This document shows, piece after piece, positions 12,823 through 45,451 of a DNA stretch of 64,000 nt. Origin of the DNA: Paracoccaceae bacterium (lineage in GTDB: Bacteria; Pseudomonadota; Alphaproteobacteria; Rhodobacterales; Rhodobacteraceae); NCBI GenBank assembly GCA_958296035.1, contig OY282431.1, forward strand, positions 2,340,037 through 2,404,036. The letters run 5' to 3'. Numbering within the stretch: position 1 is the stretch's first letter; each line of letters opens with the position of its first letter. The notes under the pieces were generated by a model. It ran no database searches. It worked only from the letters and a program-made list of their open reading frames with translations, and was not told the DNA's origin. A program made the position numbers and the translations under genes.

Positions 12823-13787
12823 TGCCCAAAGTCACACTCGAAGCCAGGCAGATAACCAAATACTTTCCTACCGGCGGCATGTTGACCGGAGGTGTCAAGC
12901 AAGTTCGCGCGGTCGAGGGCGTTGACCTGATCCTCTACGCCGGAGAGACATTGGGGCTGGTTGGTGAAAGCGGATGCGGGAAGTCGACTGTCGGCCGGTT
13001 GTTGGTCAGGTTGCTGAGGCCAACAAGTGGTACAGTTTTTCTGCATGGAGAAGATATCGGCAAAGCGACTGGAGACAGGCTGCGTCGCCTGCGCCGCAAG
13101 TTGCAGATTGTGTTTCAGGACCCCTTGTCGTCGCTCAACCCGCGTCATCGGGTGTCCCGCATTCTTGCTGCACCATTTCACATACATGACAATCTCAGTC
13201 TGGACCAAATTGACGCGCAAGTCTCCCGGCTCATGCAGCGTGTCGGTCTCGATCCAGCGGGCAGGCACAAGTTTCCACACGAGTTTTCTGGAGGACAATG
13301 TCAGCGTATTGGCATCGCCCGCGCCATCGCCCTGGACCCCGAACTGATTGTTTGCGATGAACCTGTTTCAGCACTGGATGTTTCCGTGCAGGCTCAAATC
13401 ATCAACCTGCTTCGCGATCTCAGGCGTCAGTCCGGTTCGTCACTGCTATTTATTTCTCATGATCTGGCGGTGGTTGAGAACCTGTGCGACCGGGTCGCCG
13501 TCATGTATCTGGGTCGCATAGTCGAGCTTGCCGATCGTGACAGCCTCTTCGACAATCCCCGGCATCCATACAGTGAAGCGCTGCTTGCATCGGTTCCGCG
13601 TCTGCATGGCCGTCGACGACAATCGCGTTCACGCGCCCTGTCAGGTGAAATTCCAAGCCCTGTCGATCCGCCCTCCGGCTGCGCCTTTCACCCCCGATGT
13701 CCGCTGGCTGCCGACATCTGTCGCAAAGAGGTCCCGATGCTCGCCTTGCGTTCTGACAGTCATTCGGTTGCCTGTCACTTCCGTTGA
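12819..13787 (+). CDS. ABC importer ATPase, DppF/OppF type
   Basis: A 322-residue partner ATPase: Walker A GESGCGKSTVGR, Q-loop VFQDPLSSLNPR (the SSLNPR is typical of DppF), signature FSGGQCQRIGIARA, Walker B LIVCDEPVSALD, and FISHDLAVV. The C-terminal cluster domain contains CAFHPRCPLAADIC. It starts in a 4-nt overlap with the DppD-type gene and is the last gene of the operon. No clear terminator follows. Confidence 0.94.
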   Translation: MMPKVTLEARQITKYFPTGGMLTGGVKQVRAVEGVDLILYAGETLGLVGESGCGKSTVGRLLVRLLRPTSGTVFLHGEDIGKATGDRLRRLRRKLQIVFQDPLSSLNPRHRVSRILAAPFHIHDNLSLDQIDAQVSRLMQRVGLDPAGRHKFPHEFSGGQCQRIGIARAIALDPELIVCDEPVSALDVSVQAQIINLLRDLRRQSGSSLLFISHDLAVVENLCDRVAVMYLGRIVELADRDSLFDNPRHPYSEALLASVPRLHGRRRQSRSRALSGEIPSPVDPPSGCAFHPRCPLAADICRKEVPMLALRSDSHSVACHFR

Positions 13788-14186
13788 ACCACCGATCATG
13801 CGGCAGGAAATGCAAGAACGCGGCCTTTTTGCCGGCTTCCAGAACCGTCACTTTGCAGTCACCTCGACACCCATCTGTCTGCCCAATGCGATTATTGCTG
13901 TCCCGGTGTTTTCCAATTTGCCAATTCTGTTGAGTTTAATTGCCCTAAGGGATGGTGTGCTGATTCGCGCCGACTCCCCTCAGTGCTTCCAGCCGGTTGC
14001 TCGGCAACCCGGCAAGGTCTCAAGGCTACTCTGCCGCTGTTCGTAATAGACCCTCTGACATGCGCATGTCGCAGGCCGTGTATCGGATGGAGAATCAGCC
14101 CCATGCTCCGCTTGGAACTTTTAGACATGCGATTTGGCGTTTTTCTTGTCGTAGACCCCTATTGAAAATGGAATATTTTCTAAAGT
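13788..14186. other. Gene-free stretch between the ABC operon and the restriction-modification element
   Basis: Frames on both strands here are short and lack recognisable motifs; the longest on the plus strand overlaps the ATPase gene in another frame. No intrinsic terminator with a U-run was found. Confidence 0.4.
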
Positions 14187-14209
14187 GCCTATGCCGCCAT
14201 CATGTTAGC
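14187..14209 (+). repeat. Left imperfect inverted repeat of the putative transposon
   Basis: This 23-bp segment matches the reverse complement of 16884-16906 at 18 of 23 positions, with an uninterrupted 11-bp core (ccgccatcatg, 14194-14204). It covers the stop codon of the small minus-strand gene. No 8-bp target duplication is visible outside the two copies. Confidence 0.4.
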
Positions 14210-14370
14210 TTCTGGTTCTCGAAATAATCCCAGTCGTCTTCGGTGCGTGGCAGAGCAATTACGATAGCTCGCAGCACATTCTCCGGACTTTCGGGGATCG
14301 GCTCCGGCATTGGCTTTACAGGCGGTCTTCCGCGTCGCTTCAGCTTGCCGTCGGTAATTCTCTTCTCCAC
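14200..14370 (-). CDS. Small hypothetical protein (RGRPP...WDYF type)
   Basis: A frame of 56-62 residues, very basic at the start (KLKRRGRPP) and acidic at the end (EDDWDYFEN), with PESPENVLRAIV between. The layout resembles small proteins of unknown function often found in alphaproteobacterial genomes near mobile elements (RGRPPK..IPDTPENIA..WDYLK); this is from memory. The start is unclear: GTG 14370, TTG 14388, or CTG 14343, which would overlap the endonuclease stop as CTGA. It is the last gene of the cassette and could be a controller or accessory factor, but nothing proves this. Confidence 0.5.
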   Translation of the reverse strand: MEKRITDGKLKRRGRPPVKPMPEPIPESPENVLRAIVIALPRTEDDWDYFENQKLT

Positions 14371-15110
14371 TCGGCGTGAACGGTACAAACGGAGAGTTGT
14401 ATCCGCCGGATGGTGATTTTCGCATCTGATCGGTCAAGCGCCACTATTGCAGCCAACTCGTCGCCTGCCTTGCAATTTATGAGCGGCGCGTCTCGCTCGA
14501 ACACCGGCAGGGGTGCGGTCTGCACCGCGTCGAAGATTGTGGCCGGGATTTCGAGAAGCTGATAGCGGTTCGGCGTTGTGGCTGGTCCAGCGCGGAATGC
14601 TCGGAGAATGATGATCGCGGTCACGGCAGCCTGGTATTCTCGGAATAGTTCCAGTGTCCGGTTTCTTCGCCCCGTGGCTGTCCGCTCATCCTGAATCCAT
14701 GCGGCCTCGGTCAACTTCGAGATATGGGCGGACGTTTCGGACAGCCTGGCGGCGGCGGTTGATTTGAGGGACAGCCGCCGTTTTGGCCCGGAGGCCGGTT
14801 GAACAATCAGATCGACGAACCGCCGTGTCGGGGAACCTAGCGGATCGACCGCCCATCCAACATGCTGGCAGGCGTTGCGGAAAACGGACTCGAAGGCAGT
14901 CAAGCCAAGCGGCTCGGTGGTGGCACTGTGATGAACCGAGAGCGCTAGGCCGAAGTATTCGATCCATGCTCCAACGCTAGTCAGCCATGTACCCGGCGAC
15001 CGTATGTCCGCACTCGGTGGGTTGGAAAGGGAGGACACAACCGTAGCGACGAACTCGATCTGCGCGGGCGAGAACAAGTCTAGGCGGGCCTTGAGATCTG
15101 CGAGTGTCAA
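14340..15110 (-). CDS. Putative type II restriction endonuclease
   Basis: About 256 residues from the chosen TTG at 15110, which overlaps the methyltransferase stop by 4 nt (TTGA). An in-frame ATG at 15179 would give 279 residues but a 72-nt overlap. The body has D100 in RFVDLIVQ followed after 15 residues by SLK (S114-K116), a PD-(D/E)XK-like arrangement similar in form to the D...SxK sites of Cfr10I/NgoMIV-type enzymes, with E74 as a possible extra ligand. No family name can be given with confidence. Its position directly after an m4C-type methyltransferase is the main argument for an endonuclease. There is no internal stop or frameshift, so it may be active. Confidence 0.65.
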   Translation of the reverse strand: MTLADLKARLDLFSPAQIEFVATVVSSLSNPPSADIRSPGTWLTSVGAWIEYFGLALSVHHSATTEPLGLTAFESVFRNACQHVGWAVDPLGSPTRRFVDLIVQPASGPKRRLSLKSTAAARLSETSAHISKLTEAAWIQDERTATGRRNRTLELFREYQAAVTAIIILRAFRAGPATTPNRYQLLEIPATIFDAVQTAPLPVFERDAPLINCKAGDELAAIVALDRSDAKITIRRIQLSVCTVHAEWRRELPTAS

Positions 15111-16012
15111 AGGCCCGACACCCGGTGTTCGATCAGGTCCACATAGTTCGGTTTGATTTCTGCGCCGACCCATCGACACCCGAGTTCCCGCGCGACGATG
15201 AGGCTCGTTCCACTACCTGCATAAGGATCAAGCACAACGCAATTCTGACGGACAGTCATCGCCATGCACTGGCGGGCCAATGACAACGGCATCATTGCCG
15301 GATGATCTGCAGACCAGTTGGCAGGCCGTCGTAGCGGCTTGGTCGGCAAATCCCAAACCGTCCTGAGCCGACGGCCGCCCGGCCCGCAAACCGCGCCGAT
15401 GGTATAGTGATAGTCTTGCTCTTTCGAGAGCAGGAAGACGGTCTCATGTGCCTTGGTTGGACGGTCCTGAACTGACTCGGGCTGCGCATTCGGCTTGTGC
15501 CAGATTACTTCGCTACGGAGCCACCAGCCGGCCTCCTGCAGGCCGAACGCGAGCCGCCACGGAATGCCGATGAGGTCTTTCGGCTTAAGCCCTTCTGGTG
15601 TCGGAGGTCGGACATCCATTGCCCGCGCGCGGTTCTTTCTGTCAGGAGCCCTGTAACGGCGATTACCAGAGGTGTAGACATCGCCGACGTTCAGCCAAAC
15701 GGTCCCATCGGTACGCAGGACCCGCCGGACTTCCTCGAATACATCCATGACGCTCGCGACATAGCTCTCAAGGCTATCGTCGCAGCCGGTTTGATCCTCG
15801 ACCTCATAGTCCCGCAACGACCAGTAGGGCGGCGAGGTCAAAACGGTCTGCACCGACTCACTGGGCAACAACGCAAGCGACTTCTTCGCATCGCCACAAA
15901 ACAGCAGGTTCTCGTCTATAGAGGTGAAAGGCTTGCGGTCGAGGTTGTCAATCCGCGTGTATCCGGGAGTCGCTTCATCCCAGAGAGCGGCCTGCAAAGC
16001 CCGCCCACTCAT
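15107..16012 (-). CDS. DNA methyltransferase, class beta, probably N4-cytosine (type II R-M)
   Basis: A 301-residue SAM-dependent DNA methyltransferase. The catalytic motif IV TSPPYW is at residues 59-64 and the SAM-binding motif I DPYAGSGTS at about 262-270, so the motif order is IV-TRD-I, the class beta layout. SPPY with a following W is typical of N4-cytosine enzymes, with N6-adenine as the alternative. The central part, roughly residues 110-240, should contain the target-recognition region. ATG 16012 was chosen because AAGGAAG lies just upstream and ATGA overlaps the transposase stop. It protects host DNA from the linked endonuclease. The recognition sequence cannot be read from the protein. 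Confidence 0.88.
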   Translation of the reverse strand: MSGRALQAALWDEATPGYTRIDNLDRKPFTSIDENLLFCGDAKKSLALLPSESVQTVLTSPPYWSLRDYEVEDQTGCDDSLESYVASVMDVFEEVRRVLRTDGTVWLNVGDVYTSGNRRYRAPDRKNRARAMDVRPPTPEGLKPKDLIGIPWRLAFGLQEAGWWLRSEVIWHKPNAQPESVQDRPTKAHETVFLLSKEQDYHYTIGAVCGPGGRRLRTVWDLPTKPLRRPANWSADHPAMMPLSLARQCMAMTVRQNCVVLDPYAGSGTSLIVARELGCRWVGAEIKPNYVDLIEHRVSGL

Positions 16013-16740
16013 GCGCTCTTCCTTGCGCCCGACGGGAGGCCATTGTTGGCAATGAGGTCTTGGTACCACACCCTCTTCCTGGCCATGCCAATAGCGACCA
16101 GGCGCAACATGCTTAGCGTATCGCAGAGCAGGATGTTGTGCCGTCCTGCAAACTCCCGGACATTACGGACAATTTTCTTCACTGAGAATTTGTGGAAGGT
16201 TCTCTGATAGACGCGTTTAAGGTGACCCCAGAACGACTCCATCCGGTCAGTGCGCGCCTTCCGACGTACATACACGCCGACTCTGTGATTGGCGGGCTCG
16301 TCGGTCAAGGATATTACTCCTGGTGCTGTTTGGTCGCAGACGAACCCCTTTAGCAGCGTTGCATCAGTCTGGGAAATAGGCTGCGCAGCAACGCGGTTCG
16401 AGTAGCGGTCCCCGATCCAGGCGACAGCCGACTTGCCCACTGTTCCACGCCTGGCACCCGCCTCGGCCGGTTCCTTGGGCTTCGCCTTCGACTTCGACAT
16501 GTTCGTTCGCTTGCTGCCAATGCAGACCTTATCGACCTCCACCTGGCCCGTGAACATTGAGCCGCCTTCGCGCTCCCGTGTCTCCCGGTTGCGATGCGCC
16601 AGTTGCCATGCTGTCTCCTGCGTGATACCAAGGTCCCGGTGCAGCTTCTTGCTGCACGAACCTTCTATACCTGCTGTCATCAGATAGCCGGACAGTACGT
16701 CTGTCTTGTTGAGTCGCCCAGAAACACTCGCGCAATCTCT
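16009..16740 (-). pseudogene. Degenerate IS1595-family transposase
   Basis: The frame starts mid-protein with RDCASVSGRL (remnant of the zinc-ribbon), continues GYLMTAGIEGSCSKKLHRDLGITQETAWQLAHR, then VEVDKVCIGSK (first catalytic Asp kept, usual following Glu now Lys), LTDEPANH (second Asp), RMESFWGHLKR (last acidic residue region) and EFAGRHN. About 20-25 residues between LTDE and VGVYV are missing relative to the family, the N-terminal zinc finger is largely lost, and a stop precedes the frame in the same phase. A full protein would be about 300 residues or more. Its stop overlaps the methyltransferase start as ATGA. Confidence 0.8.
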
Positions 16741-16883: not shown

Positions 16884-16906
16884 ACTACCATGATGGCGGT
16901 AACGGC
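16884..16906 (-). repeat. Right imperfect inverted repeat of the putative transposon
   Basis: Partner of 14187-14209 (18 of 23 positions, 11-bp core catgatggcgg at 16889-16899). It lies about 140 bp upstream of the transposase remnant, as expected for the transposase-proximal end. Confidence 0.4.
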
Positions 16907-17453
16907 AGTTGACTCGCCGGAAACGATTGCGCCGGGCATGGCAAACTTCGGGGATGCCAGAGAGACCCTGCCTTGTGCCCTTTCCTCAAGATTTGTTTCG
17001 TCCGGGAGACGTTAGTATTGTGCTGACTTACCCAGCGGCTTCAGCTCGATGCGGTGCGTGATGACCCGTGTATCCAGAAGCTCTAGATGCCGCTGTTGTT
17101 TTTAGGAATATCGCAATAGCAGGGGAGCAGACAGCATGAAGATATCTGAAACGAGCTATCCTCTCCAGGTGCCGTTGACACAGACCACCGCCTGCAGTGC
17201 GTTTGCGGAATCCGTGGCTCGCAGGCTCGGCGAACATTCAGGCCCGGCTGCAGGACCGCAATGAGTGGTCCAAACCCTGTGAGGATCAGGTTTGCTCGCC
17301 TTCCCGATCAAACCGGCTGGCTGTCCAAATCGATAACCTCGGTTACCGAGCGTTATGGCGACTGACTTCCCCCTGTCGCCTGCGGTGCAACACTGTTAAC
17401 GAGTATTCGGTTGGTGCTTCCTTCGACAGACCACAACTGAACCGCATCCGGCC
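16907..17453. other. Gene-free stretch between the R-M element and putA
   Basis: No convincing gene on either strand. Short frames on both strands (68-112 codons) show no family motif, and the largest plus-strand frame runs antisense into the 3' end of putA. No terminator with a clear stem and U-run was found after putA. Confidence 0.4.
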
Positions 17454-20400
17454 TCAACTGGCGACCGCAAACAGCGAAGCATTGCCGCCCGCGGCAGTGG
17501 TGTCGACACAGACATGGCGTTCGAGCACACAGTAGTCGGCAACATTCCTTGTCGTCACAAGTGGAACAATTGGGCCCTGCCGTTCTGAAAGCGCTATCCT
17601 GGCCTCTCGCACATCCGCTTCGTCGCTCCACAGTACGACGATGTCAATTCCCCTGAGTTCCGACAAATGGTGGCGTGGCAAAAAGCCGGAATGTGCATTG
17701 TTGCCCGTAGCACCAGCCGCCACCAGGACTGAAGAGCAACCGGCTGCACTGGCAGCCTCCGCCTGCAATTGTGCGTCAGCGGCCCCTGGACCCAGGCATA
17801 GGGCCGTGCCTCTGCCAAATGTGCTCAGGCGATTTGATTCGCCGGTAGGCCCCGGCATCTCCTCGGTTCCGAGCTTGACCGGTTGACCGGCCTGAACACT
17901 GTCAATCAGCGCCTGAACTTCAGCAACTGCAACCTGGAGCGCCTGGGGACACTCCCTTGTGATGACATGTGCCTTGGAAAATCCCTTCACGTATTGTGGT
18001 CCGCCCGCCTTGGGCCCGGTTCCGGACAGCCCCTCGCCACCAAATGGCTGGGAACCGACAACGGCACCGATCTGGTTGCGATTGACGTAAATGTTGCCGA
18101 CCCGAAGCTGACTGACTATCTTCCTGACGCGGGAATCAACCCTTGAATGGACCCCGAACGTCAATCCGAACCCACTGGCATTGATCGTATCAATCACCTC
18201 CTGCAAACGGCCGGACTGGTAGGAAGCGACGTGAAGCACGGGCCCGAACACTTCCTCCTTGACCGCCTCAATTCCGGAAACGGCAATCACCGCCGGGCCG
18301 ACAAACCAGCCGCTTTGTGGAACGGGGCATTGCTTGAGCAATCGGCCCTCTGATGCAGCCTGGTCGACATAGGCCTGTACATATTCGCTTGAGGCCTGAT
18401 CGATCATGGGTCCAATATCCGTGCTGACCTCCCAGGGATCGCCGATTTTCAATTCATCCATGACCCCGAACAGCATCTTCAGAAACGCGTCGTGAATGTC
18501 GGACTGCAGATACAGCACCCGCAACGCCGAACATCGCTGACCGGCAGACTGGAAGGAAGAAATTACAATATCCCGAACAACCTGTTCGGGCAGCGCAGTA
18601 CTGTCCACTATCATTGCATTGAGGCCGCCCGTTTCTGCCACCAGTCGGGCATCATTCTCCATGAACCTTGCCATCGACCGGTTGATTGACACCGCAGTTT
18701 CAGTCGATCCGGTGAAGGCAACAGCAGAAATACGCGGATCGGAAACAAGCTTGTTGCCAACGATTGATCCCTTGCCAGGAAACAACTGCAGCGCATTTTT
18801 CGGAACACCTGCAGCATGCAGCTTTTCGACCGCCAATGTAGCGATCAGCGGGGTTTGGCCTGCCGGTTTTGCCAGCACACTATTGCCGGCCGCTAGAGCG
18901 CCAGCAATCTGACCCGTGAAGATTGCGAGAGGAAAATTCCAGGGTGAAATACAGGCAACGAGACCGGCGGGGCGCAACCCCTTTTGGCGTGTGGCTTCAG
19001 TGGCGTAGTAGCGCAGGAAGTCAACCGCTTCTCGAAGTTCGGCGATGGCATCCGAAAGGGACTTTCCTGCCTCACGGCAAAGCAGGGCGAATATCTCCCC
19101 GGATGCCTCCTCGAAGAGGTCCGAAGCTCTGACAAGCACATCAGCGCGCTCCTGTGCCGGTACGTTCCATACTCGGGCACGCTGCAGGCCTTCTTCTACG
19201 TCCGCAACCGATGCCAACCATGCCTCCCCCACTGCCGTGGATGGGCTTTGTGGCTCGCTTACCCTCTGCCGGGAAGGTGTTCCGTCTTCAGTTCTGTATT
19301 CTTTGCTGGTCCAGGTGGATGTCTGGAATGGCAGCCGTGTTTCCTCAAGTTGTCGCAACACCGCTGAATCATGGAGATCCCAGCCTCTGGAATTGCGCCG
19401 CTCATGTCCAAACAGGTTCCGTGGATGTGCGATGTGCTGAATATTGCTGGCCCGGGCCTCGGCGAGTGTGTTGTAGGGATCGGCAGAAATCTCTCCCACA
19501 TCGAGGCTCGAGTTGGCGATCTGATTGACAAACGAACTGTTGGCACCGTTTTCGAGCATGCGGCGAGCCAGGTAAGGAAGAAGTTCACGGTATTCTCCGA
19601 CCGGCGCGTAGATCCTGCAGCGGGTTCCCCCGCGAGCAAGAATCTTGTCATGAAGTGCCTTCCCCATCCCGTGAATTCGCTGAAACTCGAACGCCTGACC
19701 GTCTTCGGCCATATCCAGAACCGCTGACACCGTATGGGCGTTATGGCCTGCGAACTGGGAGTAAATCCGGTCATTCATAGTCAGCAACTGGCGGGCACAA
19801 CACAGGTATGCAACGTCAGTCTCCGACTTGTGTGTATAGACCGGAAAATCCTCAAGACCCTCAACCTGGGCCCTCTTGATCTCGGTGTCCCAGTAGGCAC
19901 CCTTGACCAGACGGATCATGATCTTGCGATCCAGCTCGCATGCCAGCGCGTAGAGCCAATCGATAACGAAGGGAGCGGCCTTGCCATATGCCTGTACGAC
20001 AATTCCGAATCCGTCCCACCCCCTGAGTTCATCGTCGCGCAGAACGGCCTCGATAACCTCTAGCGAAATCTCCAGACGGTCAGCCTCCTCGGCATCGATG
20101 TTCATTCCGATATTGGCGTCCCTGGACAGACGGGCCAGGACCCGAACTCGTTCTGTCAGTTCTGCCAATACTCGCTGGCGCTGATTCAGTTCGTATCTCG
20201 GATGAAGCGCCGAAAGCTTGATAGATATGCCATTGTTGTCCCGGAAATCCGCAGATTTGCACCCTGCAGCCACACCCTGGATCGATTGCTTGTAGGCATC
20301 GAAGAAGAATTCAGCATCATCTTCGGTTATGGCCGCCTCGCCCAGCATGTCGAAGGAAAAACAGTTTCCTGCCCTTTCCGCCGGTCGGGCGCGGCGCAGT

Positions 20401-45318: not shown

Positions 45319-45451
45319 GCAGGACCACCACGTGGCGTTGCAACCTTCACCGACGGCCGGCAGCGCCCACCGGTTTTATCTTGCAGTTTCAATCGGGATT
45401 TCCGGGACCAGTATTCGTTAGGGGATTATATGCAATCAGACCCCACGCATG

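Follow-up and report, generated by a model that had tools for sequence, protein, structure and literature searches.

Gene Order at the Locus

The analyzed window (a stretch of 64,000 nucleotides from a Paracoccaceae bacterium, contig OY282431.1) carries on its minus strand, in series, a truncated transposase of the IS1595 family, a DNA methyltransferase (MTase), an endonuclease (REase) of the SmaI family, and a small basic protein (Table 1). Judging by their translations, the flanking genes encode a proline-dehydrogenase-like protein (stop at 17454) and the ATPase of an ABC transporter (end at 13787). In the interval that separates the element from the proline-dehydrogenase-like gene, a 38-bp piece (17091–17128) has two other copies in the same genome (88–89%) and is a dispersed repeat.

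The transposase stop and the MTase start are joined in ATGA (16012–16009), the MTase stop and the REase start in TTGA (15110–15107), and the REase stop lies in CTGA (14343–14340), whose CTG belongs to the reading frame of the small protein. The initial annotation had described these three four-base joints, and all of them were confirmed by the sequence. The start of the small protein that it had considered at this CTG is indeed in frame, but according to the comparison with relatives an upstream GTG/TTG, at 14370 or 14388, is the more likely start.

Table 1. Coordinates of the features of the locus in the window.
Feature	Position	Strand	Basis or remark
Truncated IS1595-family (ISXO2-like) transposase	16009–16707	-	PF12762, 34.9 bits; alignment; similarity from 16707
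N6/N4 DNA methyltransferase, 301 aa, M.Pac25I relative (P0002)	15107–16012	-	PF01555, 135.7 bits
SmaI-family type II restriction endonuclease, 256 aa, TTG start (P0003)	14340–15110	-	PF17411, PADLOC
Small basic AT-hook-like protein (RGRP) (P0004)	14200–14388	-	Start uncertain: 14388, 14370 or 14343
Candidate decayed right terminal inverted repeat, ATGGAATATTTTCTAAAGTGCCT	14168–14190	+	Best end-profile site at the expected distance
Right arm of a 26-nt inverted repeat (81%), reaching into the element	14183–14208	+	Score 15 when anchored
Left arm of the same 26-nt inverted repeat, upstream of the transposase	16885–16910	-	Outer part of the terminal repeat unrecognizable

Transposase Remnant

The transposase ORF, when counted from ATG, occupies positions 16009–16680. 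Its ISXO2-like transposase domain exceeds the PF12762 cut-off of 27 bits (Table 1), and the NCBIfam model NF033547 gave 61.6 bits, under its cut-off of 75. The catalytic triad (D50, D127, and E148) is retained, and the C-terminus is complete, with NGLPSGAR as in the relatives. Approximately 87 N-terminal residues of about 323 model positions are lost, the similarity beginning at model position 87–89. The N-terminal zinc ribbon, whose cysteines are nearly invariant among the aligned relatives, is absent; therefore, this copy is a remnant. The loss had been described previously as that of a part of the zinc ribbon. It is real but extends further, the whole N-terminus of approximately 87 residues being unrecognizable. 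A deletion in the core, estimated earlier at 20–25 residues, is also present, but it comprises 14 alignment columns in comparison with ten relatives. The remnant is the sole transposase match in the window, and a plasmid search with it gave no match at 1e-30.

Methyltransferase and Endonuclease

The MTase matches PF01555 (N6_N4_Mtase) over residues 54–295, above the cut-off of 26.7 bits. The sequence SPPYW precedes DPYAGSGT; we take them to be motifs IV and I, respectively, in the order of the beta class of N4/N6 methyltransferases. The protein is 50.5% identical to the plasmid-borne pac25I.M. On the pac25I.M plasmid and in one other plasmid stretch, an MTase of this type is followed by a REase of the XcyI family, and the window REase matches (40%) an unnamed protein adjoining an MTase on an Arthrobacter plasmid. 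The window pair is thus similar to M.Pac25I/XcyI-type and SmaI-type systems in its MTase and its SmaI-family REase, whereas the three plasmid systems differ in these partners and have no transposase annotated in their stretches.

The REase matches the PF17411 (SmaI) model over residues 10–249 with 28.8 bits, a narrow margin above the cut-off of 27.3, and the PADLOC REase_II model at 3e-13. The TTG start of the gene is supported by the REase of the genome G654 (71% identical), whose ATG falls at the corresponding position of the alignment. A PDB sequence search with the REase gave no match at E ≤ 1, and a phage search gave none at 1e-3. The structure predicted for the REase alone was set aside (mean pLDDT 40).

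REase matches are rare: at E ≤ 1e-3 they were found in 3 of 295 genomes of the family and 3 of 385 genomes of the class, and at E ≤ 1e-10 in 2 of 390 genomes of the order and 2 of 398 genomes of the phylum, the genome of the window being counted in each sample. The nearest relative of the restriction–modification (R-M) pair is that of G654, a genome of another family, with an identity of about 70–71% for both genes (200/283 residues for the MTase and 178/251 for the REase). The G654 pair sits between frames read as a SAM-methyltransferase and pheT, and no transposase or small-protein match was found within 14 kb around it. No transposase was detected in the stretches around the other REase matches tested in the four taxonomic samples either; therefore, the R-M pair is a separable cargo. 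Among these surroundings and the 100 element loci described below, no other IS1595 element with a SmaI-type pair was found, and the window holds the sole copy seen with an IS1595 transposase. In the genome G233 (L013/L153), a SmaI-like REase homologue has as neighbors, as judged by reading, a methyltransferase of the C5 type and a Vsr-like frame, so this type of REase also occurs beside another MTase class.

Both R-M frames are open, as had been stated initially, and constrained. In comparison with G654, pN/pS is 0.195/0.722 (0.27) for the MTase and 0.193/0.686 (0.28) for the REase, values that refer to the whole divergence and not only to the time since insertion, with synonymous change near saturation. 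XcyI, SmaI, and Pac25I recognize CCCGGG. Judging from its family and partners, the window pair most likely acts at the same site; this specificity is a prediction. CCCGGG occurs 17 times in the window versus 22.3 expected (rank 13 of 64 palindromes), and avoidance is not clear.

Related IS1595 Elements

Ten relatives were aligned with the remnant and then used for a scan of 84,980 genomes, which gave at least 504 confirmed relatives. The best 80 of these at least 504, together with 20 from genomes of the family, made up the 100 analyzed loci of related transposases. Pairs of terminal inverted repeats (TIRs) enclosing the transposase and cargo were found at 15 of the 20 family loci and at 63 of the 80 loci from the genome collection, where 67 pairs had been scored and four dropped as not TIR-like (L082, L101, L108, and L111). 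After removal of the duplicates L063, L087, and L120, 75 distinct elements remained, bounded by GGGGATTATATAC-type inverted repeats around the transposase and cargo. An exact 8-bp target duplication was present in 61 of them and lacking in 14. The consensus of the element end, derived from 112 ends, is GGGGATTATATACCTAAGTAGCC.

The distance from the transposase stop to the right end ranges from 0.2 to 5.7 kb across the elements; the median distance from the end of the transposase match to the right end is 1843 bp. A cargo ORF is annotated in 78 elements (the window and the three duplicates included). In 26 of them, the first such ORF on the transposase strand lies no more than 10 nt from the transposase stop, and 12 of these 26 show a four-base overlap as in the window (ten ATGA, the window counted, and two GTGA). 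Given this recurrence, the joint of transposase and MTase in the window is more than chance.

According to the record titles, the relatives belong to Alphaproteobacteria, Gammaproteobacteria, Bryobacterales, Chloroflexi, Gemmatimonadetes, Acidimicrobiia, Flavobacteriaceae, Rhodothermales, and others, labels that may err because many of the genomes are metagenome bins. From the bin names, most of the genomes with related elements are presumably sponge-associated.

Small Right-End Protein and Element Ends

In the phmmer program, P0004 showed similarity to ORFs of nine other element loci (eight distinct elements) at E ≤ 1e-6, down to 5e-13. A profile trained on P0004 and eight other sequences matched 26 other loci at E ≤ 1e-3; for P0004 itself, a member of the training set, the value was 6.2e-26. 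At 17 of the 26 loci, the small protein is encoded on the transposase strand and its stop is 12–91 bp away from the right end (31–40 bp in 9 of the 17), and the remaining nine matches are placed elsewhere or on the opposite strand (L041, L051, L062, L063, L091, L100, L115, L120, and L138). A search of 14 genomes at E ≤ 1e-9 gave 17 matches, each of which has an IS1595 transposase upstream in the same orientation; 11 of these had trained the profile, and the six others agree (6/6). At E ≤ 1e-5, 21 of 25 matches are co-directional with a transposase, and the four without one count against the reading of the R-M pair as cargo. Two of the 14 genomes, G029 and G691 (the genome of the element L071), gave no small-protein match, which counts against this reading as well. 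Many of the small proteins contain an RGRP core, which we take to resemble the AT-hook motif; one might guess that the protein binds the AT-rich element ends. Since the small protein of the window is a member of this right-end family, the R-M pair appears to lie inside such an element.

The end-like site at 14168 is located 32 bp from the stop of P0004 (14200), as in many relatives. Its P value is 0.002–0.009 for ten expected positions and 0.017–0.071 for 80 positions, varying with the pseudocount. The score is far under the minimum of the ends that trained the profile, and the profile of 112 ends found no good site at the window element. Anchored to the expected ends, the 26-nt inverted repeat scored 15 versus at most 12 in 500 shuffles, in a comparison run once the repeat was already known; in an unanchored TIR search of the window, the best score was 15, which did not exceed the second-best scores arising by chance at other places. 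The repeat became informative only when the search was anchored to the right-end protein. These end-like signals, taken together with the gene order, suggest that the R-M pair is internal cargo of a dead element.

An 8-bp target duplication was not found at the window element, the best agreement being 6 of 8 over 576 combinations of its possible, uncertain ends. In eight other genomes of the genus, there was no DNA match to the R-M pair longer than 54 bases among the matches listed, and none of them gave the locus in one readable piece. The search for an empty site in nine genomes of the genus, the own genome included, revealed both flanking genes in G301, on different contigs. The best end-profile site of the window is an isolated IS1595-end-like sequence at 45421–45443, GGGGATTATATGCAATCAGACCC.

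Restriction–Modification Cargo of Related Elements

At least 23 of the 75 TIR-bounded elements carry an MTase and a recognized nuclease, and 17 of these 23 have an exact duplication. Both activities are fused in a single chain in 17 elements (MTase and nuclease domains both above the Pfam cut-offs), five have separate genes, and one is of the HsdR/M-S type. Fusions of MTase with HNH were found in L042, L048, L049, L060, L064, L066, L079, L088, L089, L100, and L107, with T5orf172 in L047, L091, and L099, and with Mrr, narrowly above the cut-off, in L044, L068, and L125. In L080, the Mrr domain is under the cut-off, and in L045, L051, L093, and L104, MTase–nuclease proteins are split over two frames.

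Separate MTase and BglII-family REase genes behind an ATGA joint were identified in L134, which also has the small protein and an 8/8 duplication. L071 combines an ATGA joint, an MT-A70 protein, a BglII-family REase, and an 8/8 duplication; L136 has a C5 MTase, an NgoFVII-type REase, the small protein, and an 8/8 duplication. Two elements are without an exact duplication: L090, with an ATGA joint, an MTase, and a BglII-family REase, and L065, with a GTGA joint and the PADLOC matches MTase_II and REase_II, the REase having no Pfam match. In L110, an ATGA joint precedes an MTase and a CfrBI-type REase, and no TIR pair was found. L070 encodes an HSDR_N-N6_Mtase protein and a specificity subunit. 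Since several unrelated endonuclease families occur in the elements, R-M cargo was captured several times.

A profile of cargo MTases matched 31 of the 75 cargos (151.5 kb) versus three flank sides in 665.8 kb at the same loci, a count that favors the cargos because the profile was built from their own MTases; the 31 include a GmrSD-HNH protein (L132) and several fragments (e.g., L062, L076, and L081).

In G691, two copies of the L071 element at different sites are identical over 2578/2578 bases and carry their own 8-bp duplications, AAATGAAT and CAAAATTG. Four further copies, which agree position by position at 2573/2578 bases, are embedded in a longer repeat and have their flanks in common. 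The genome of the window itself contains two other IS1595 elements with such cargo, one with an MTase–Mrr fusion and no exact duplication (L044, contig 1 at 88356) and one with an MTase–HNH fusion and an exact 8-bp duplication (L048, contig 1 at 2011481).

Some observations concern other transposases and cargos. Four copies of another IS1595 transposase in G691 (L193–L196), each followed by an MTase frame, have at least 2.6 kb in common. The cargo of L055–L058 is a P63C-domain protein (L055 tested, the others assigned by BLAST cluster), that of L086 shows a weak ParE-like match under the cut-off, and that of L062/L063 is a repeated 471-aa protein.

Discussion

We conclude, with a probability of roughly 0.85, that the R-M pair of the window is the cargo of a decayed "transporter IS" of the IS1595 family. 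This passenger reading, proposed in the initial annotation, is supported by the R-M cargo of relatives bounded by TIRs (at least 23 of 75) and by the right-end-family protein behind the REase. The passenger reading was to fail if this transposase family never occurred with an R-M pair, which proved false, the same relatives carrying an MTase with a nuclease. It was also to fail if related genomes had the R-M pair at this locus and no transposase there, which was not seen in the eight other genomes of the genus, none of which gave the locus in one readable piece. The window lacks a good TIR and a target duplication, and a second IS1595 element with this SmaI-type pair was not found at the loci covered; these points speak against the passenger reading. 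In the relatives, passenger genes lie between the transposase and the right TIR; in the window, this placement follows from the gene order with the right-end protein, not from a clear TIR.

The organization of the elements is left TIR, transposase, cargo, in many of them the small right-end protein, and right TIR. The transposase of such elements acts on their TIRs, and insertion makes an 8-bp target duplication, as shown in the relatives. Where type II cargo lies on the same strand, the MTase gene often overlaps the transposase stop by four bases, the endonuclease gene being next. From this overlap and gene succession, translation of the MTase and REase is probably coupled to that of the transposase on a shared mRNA. 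The ATGA joint, the order of transposase, MTase, and REase, and the weak TTG start suggest coupled expression in which the protecting enzyme comes first. The MTase would protect and the REase cut, most likely at CCCGGG. R-M systems can act as addiction modules, and by analogy the cargo may both protect its host and penalize cells from which the element is lost. Since the transposase and the ends have decayed, the unit of the window is probably unable to move itself, and its R-M genes stay open. The earlier suggestion that the system has outlived its carrier fits these data, the constraint on the R-M frames being that over the whole divergence from G654.

Another possibility is that the genes are indeed cargo of the element but not a working R-M system, the MTase serving the element in anti-restriction or transposition tuning and the nuclease being a relic. 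Solitary MTases are described as common in mobile elements (PMC4176335), and L113 and L122 encode an MTase with no recognized nuclease domain. However, the REase frame of the window is open and as constrained as that of the MTase (pN/pS 0.28 and 0.27), and nucleases recur with the MTase in the relatives; we consider a non-R-M role unlikely. The locus could also be a chance neighborhood, in which an independent R-M pair came to lie behind an old IS1595 copy, or received the insertion of such a copy, and the overlaps are accidental. The solitary G654 pair and the lack of a target duplication in the window agree with this, but the right-end protein of the element family stands behind the REase, end-like sequences occur at the expected places, and 11 other elements show the four-base overlap as well, which makes mere chance improbable. 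Finally, the remnant and the R-M pair might have been joined when DNA was deleted between a neighboring R-M locus and an IS1595 element that carried other cargo. The lost 5' part of the transposase and the unrecognizable left end are in line with such a deletion, but it is very improbable, since the C-terminus of the transposase is complete and joined as in intact elements and the right-end gene is also in place.

The decayed element with R-M cargo is comparable to the transporter IS (tIS) of the IS1595 family, such as ISNha5 and tISCpe8, in combining an IS1595-type transposase with passenger genes. The tIS passengers named in the available review passages and a reference title are a transcription regulator and lincomycin resistance; 25-bp TIRs and an 8-bp duplication are given there for tISCpe8/MTnSag1. 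These passages on tIS name no R-M systems, in contrast to the R-M passengers found here, and the MTase passenger named in the reviews is that of IS220, a member of the IS1380 family. A search of titles and abstract openings revealed no report of R-M cargo in IS1595 elements; full texts may hold an earlier mention.

Movement of R-M systems with insertion sequences has been considered before. Furuta and coauthors reportedly described in 2010 IS-flanked R-M complexes that had moved with insertion sequences, with short target duplications. Similar movement of PaeR7I and other R-M complexes, also with short target duplications, is reported in Takahashi 2011 (PMC3031569). There, the R-M genes lie between two IS copies or move via a plasmid co-integrate, whereas here the R-M genes are inside a single IS-like unit behind the transposase. 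A concrete vehicle of R-M genes is thus provided by the unit of approximately 2.6 kb with one transposase, an MTase, and a REase, whose two copies are identical and each flanked by a separate duplication.

Robbins et al. 2021 (PMC8163846) found R-M genes of types I and II almost only in genomes from sponges, with hardly any in those from seawater, and reported that many sponge-enriched genes had been transferred laterally. IS1595 elements with R-M cargo could explain part of this enrichment and transfer and make it testable. At about even odds, IS1595-type "restriction transposons" would form a large class of few-kb units with unrelated R-M systems in the slot behind the transposase, often with an AT-hook-like end protein; the cargo would serve addiction and defense, and the units would be a main vehicle of R-M genes between phyla of marine, mostly sponge-associated bacteria. 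IS1595-type elements that repeatedly carry R-M systems would provide bacteria with a simple vehicle for the exchange of these defenses.
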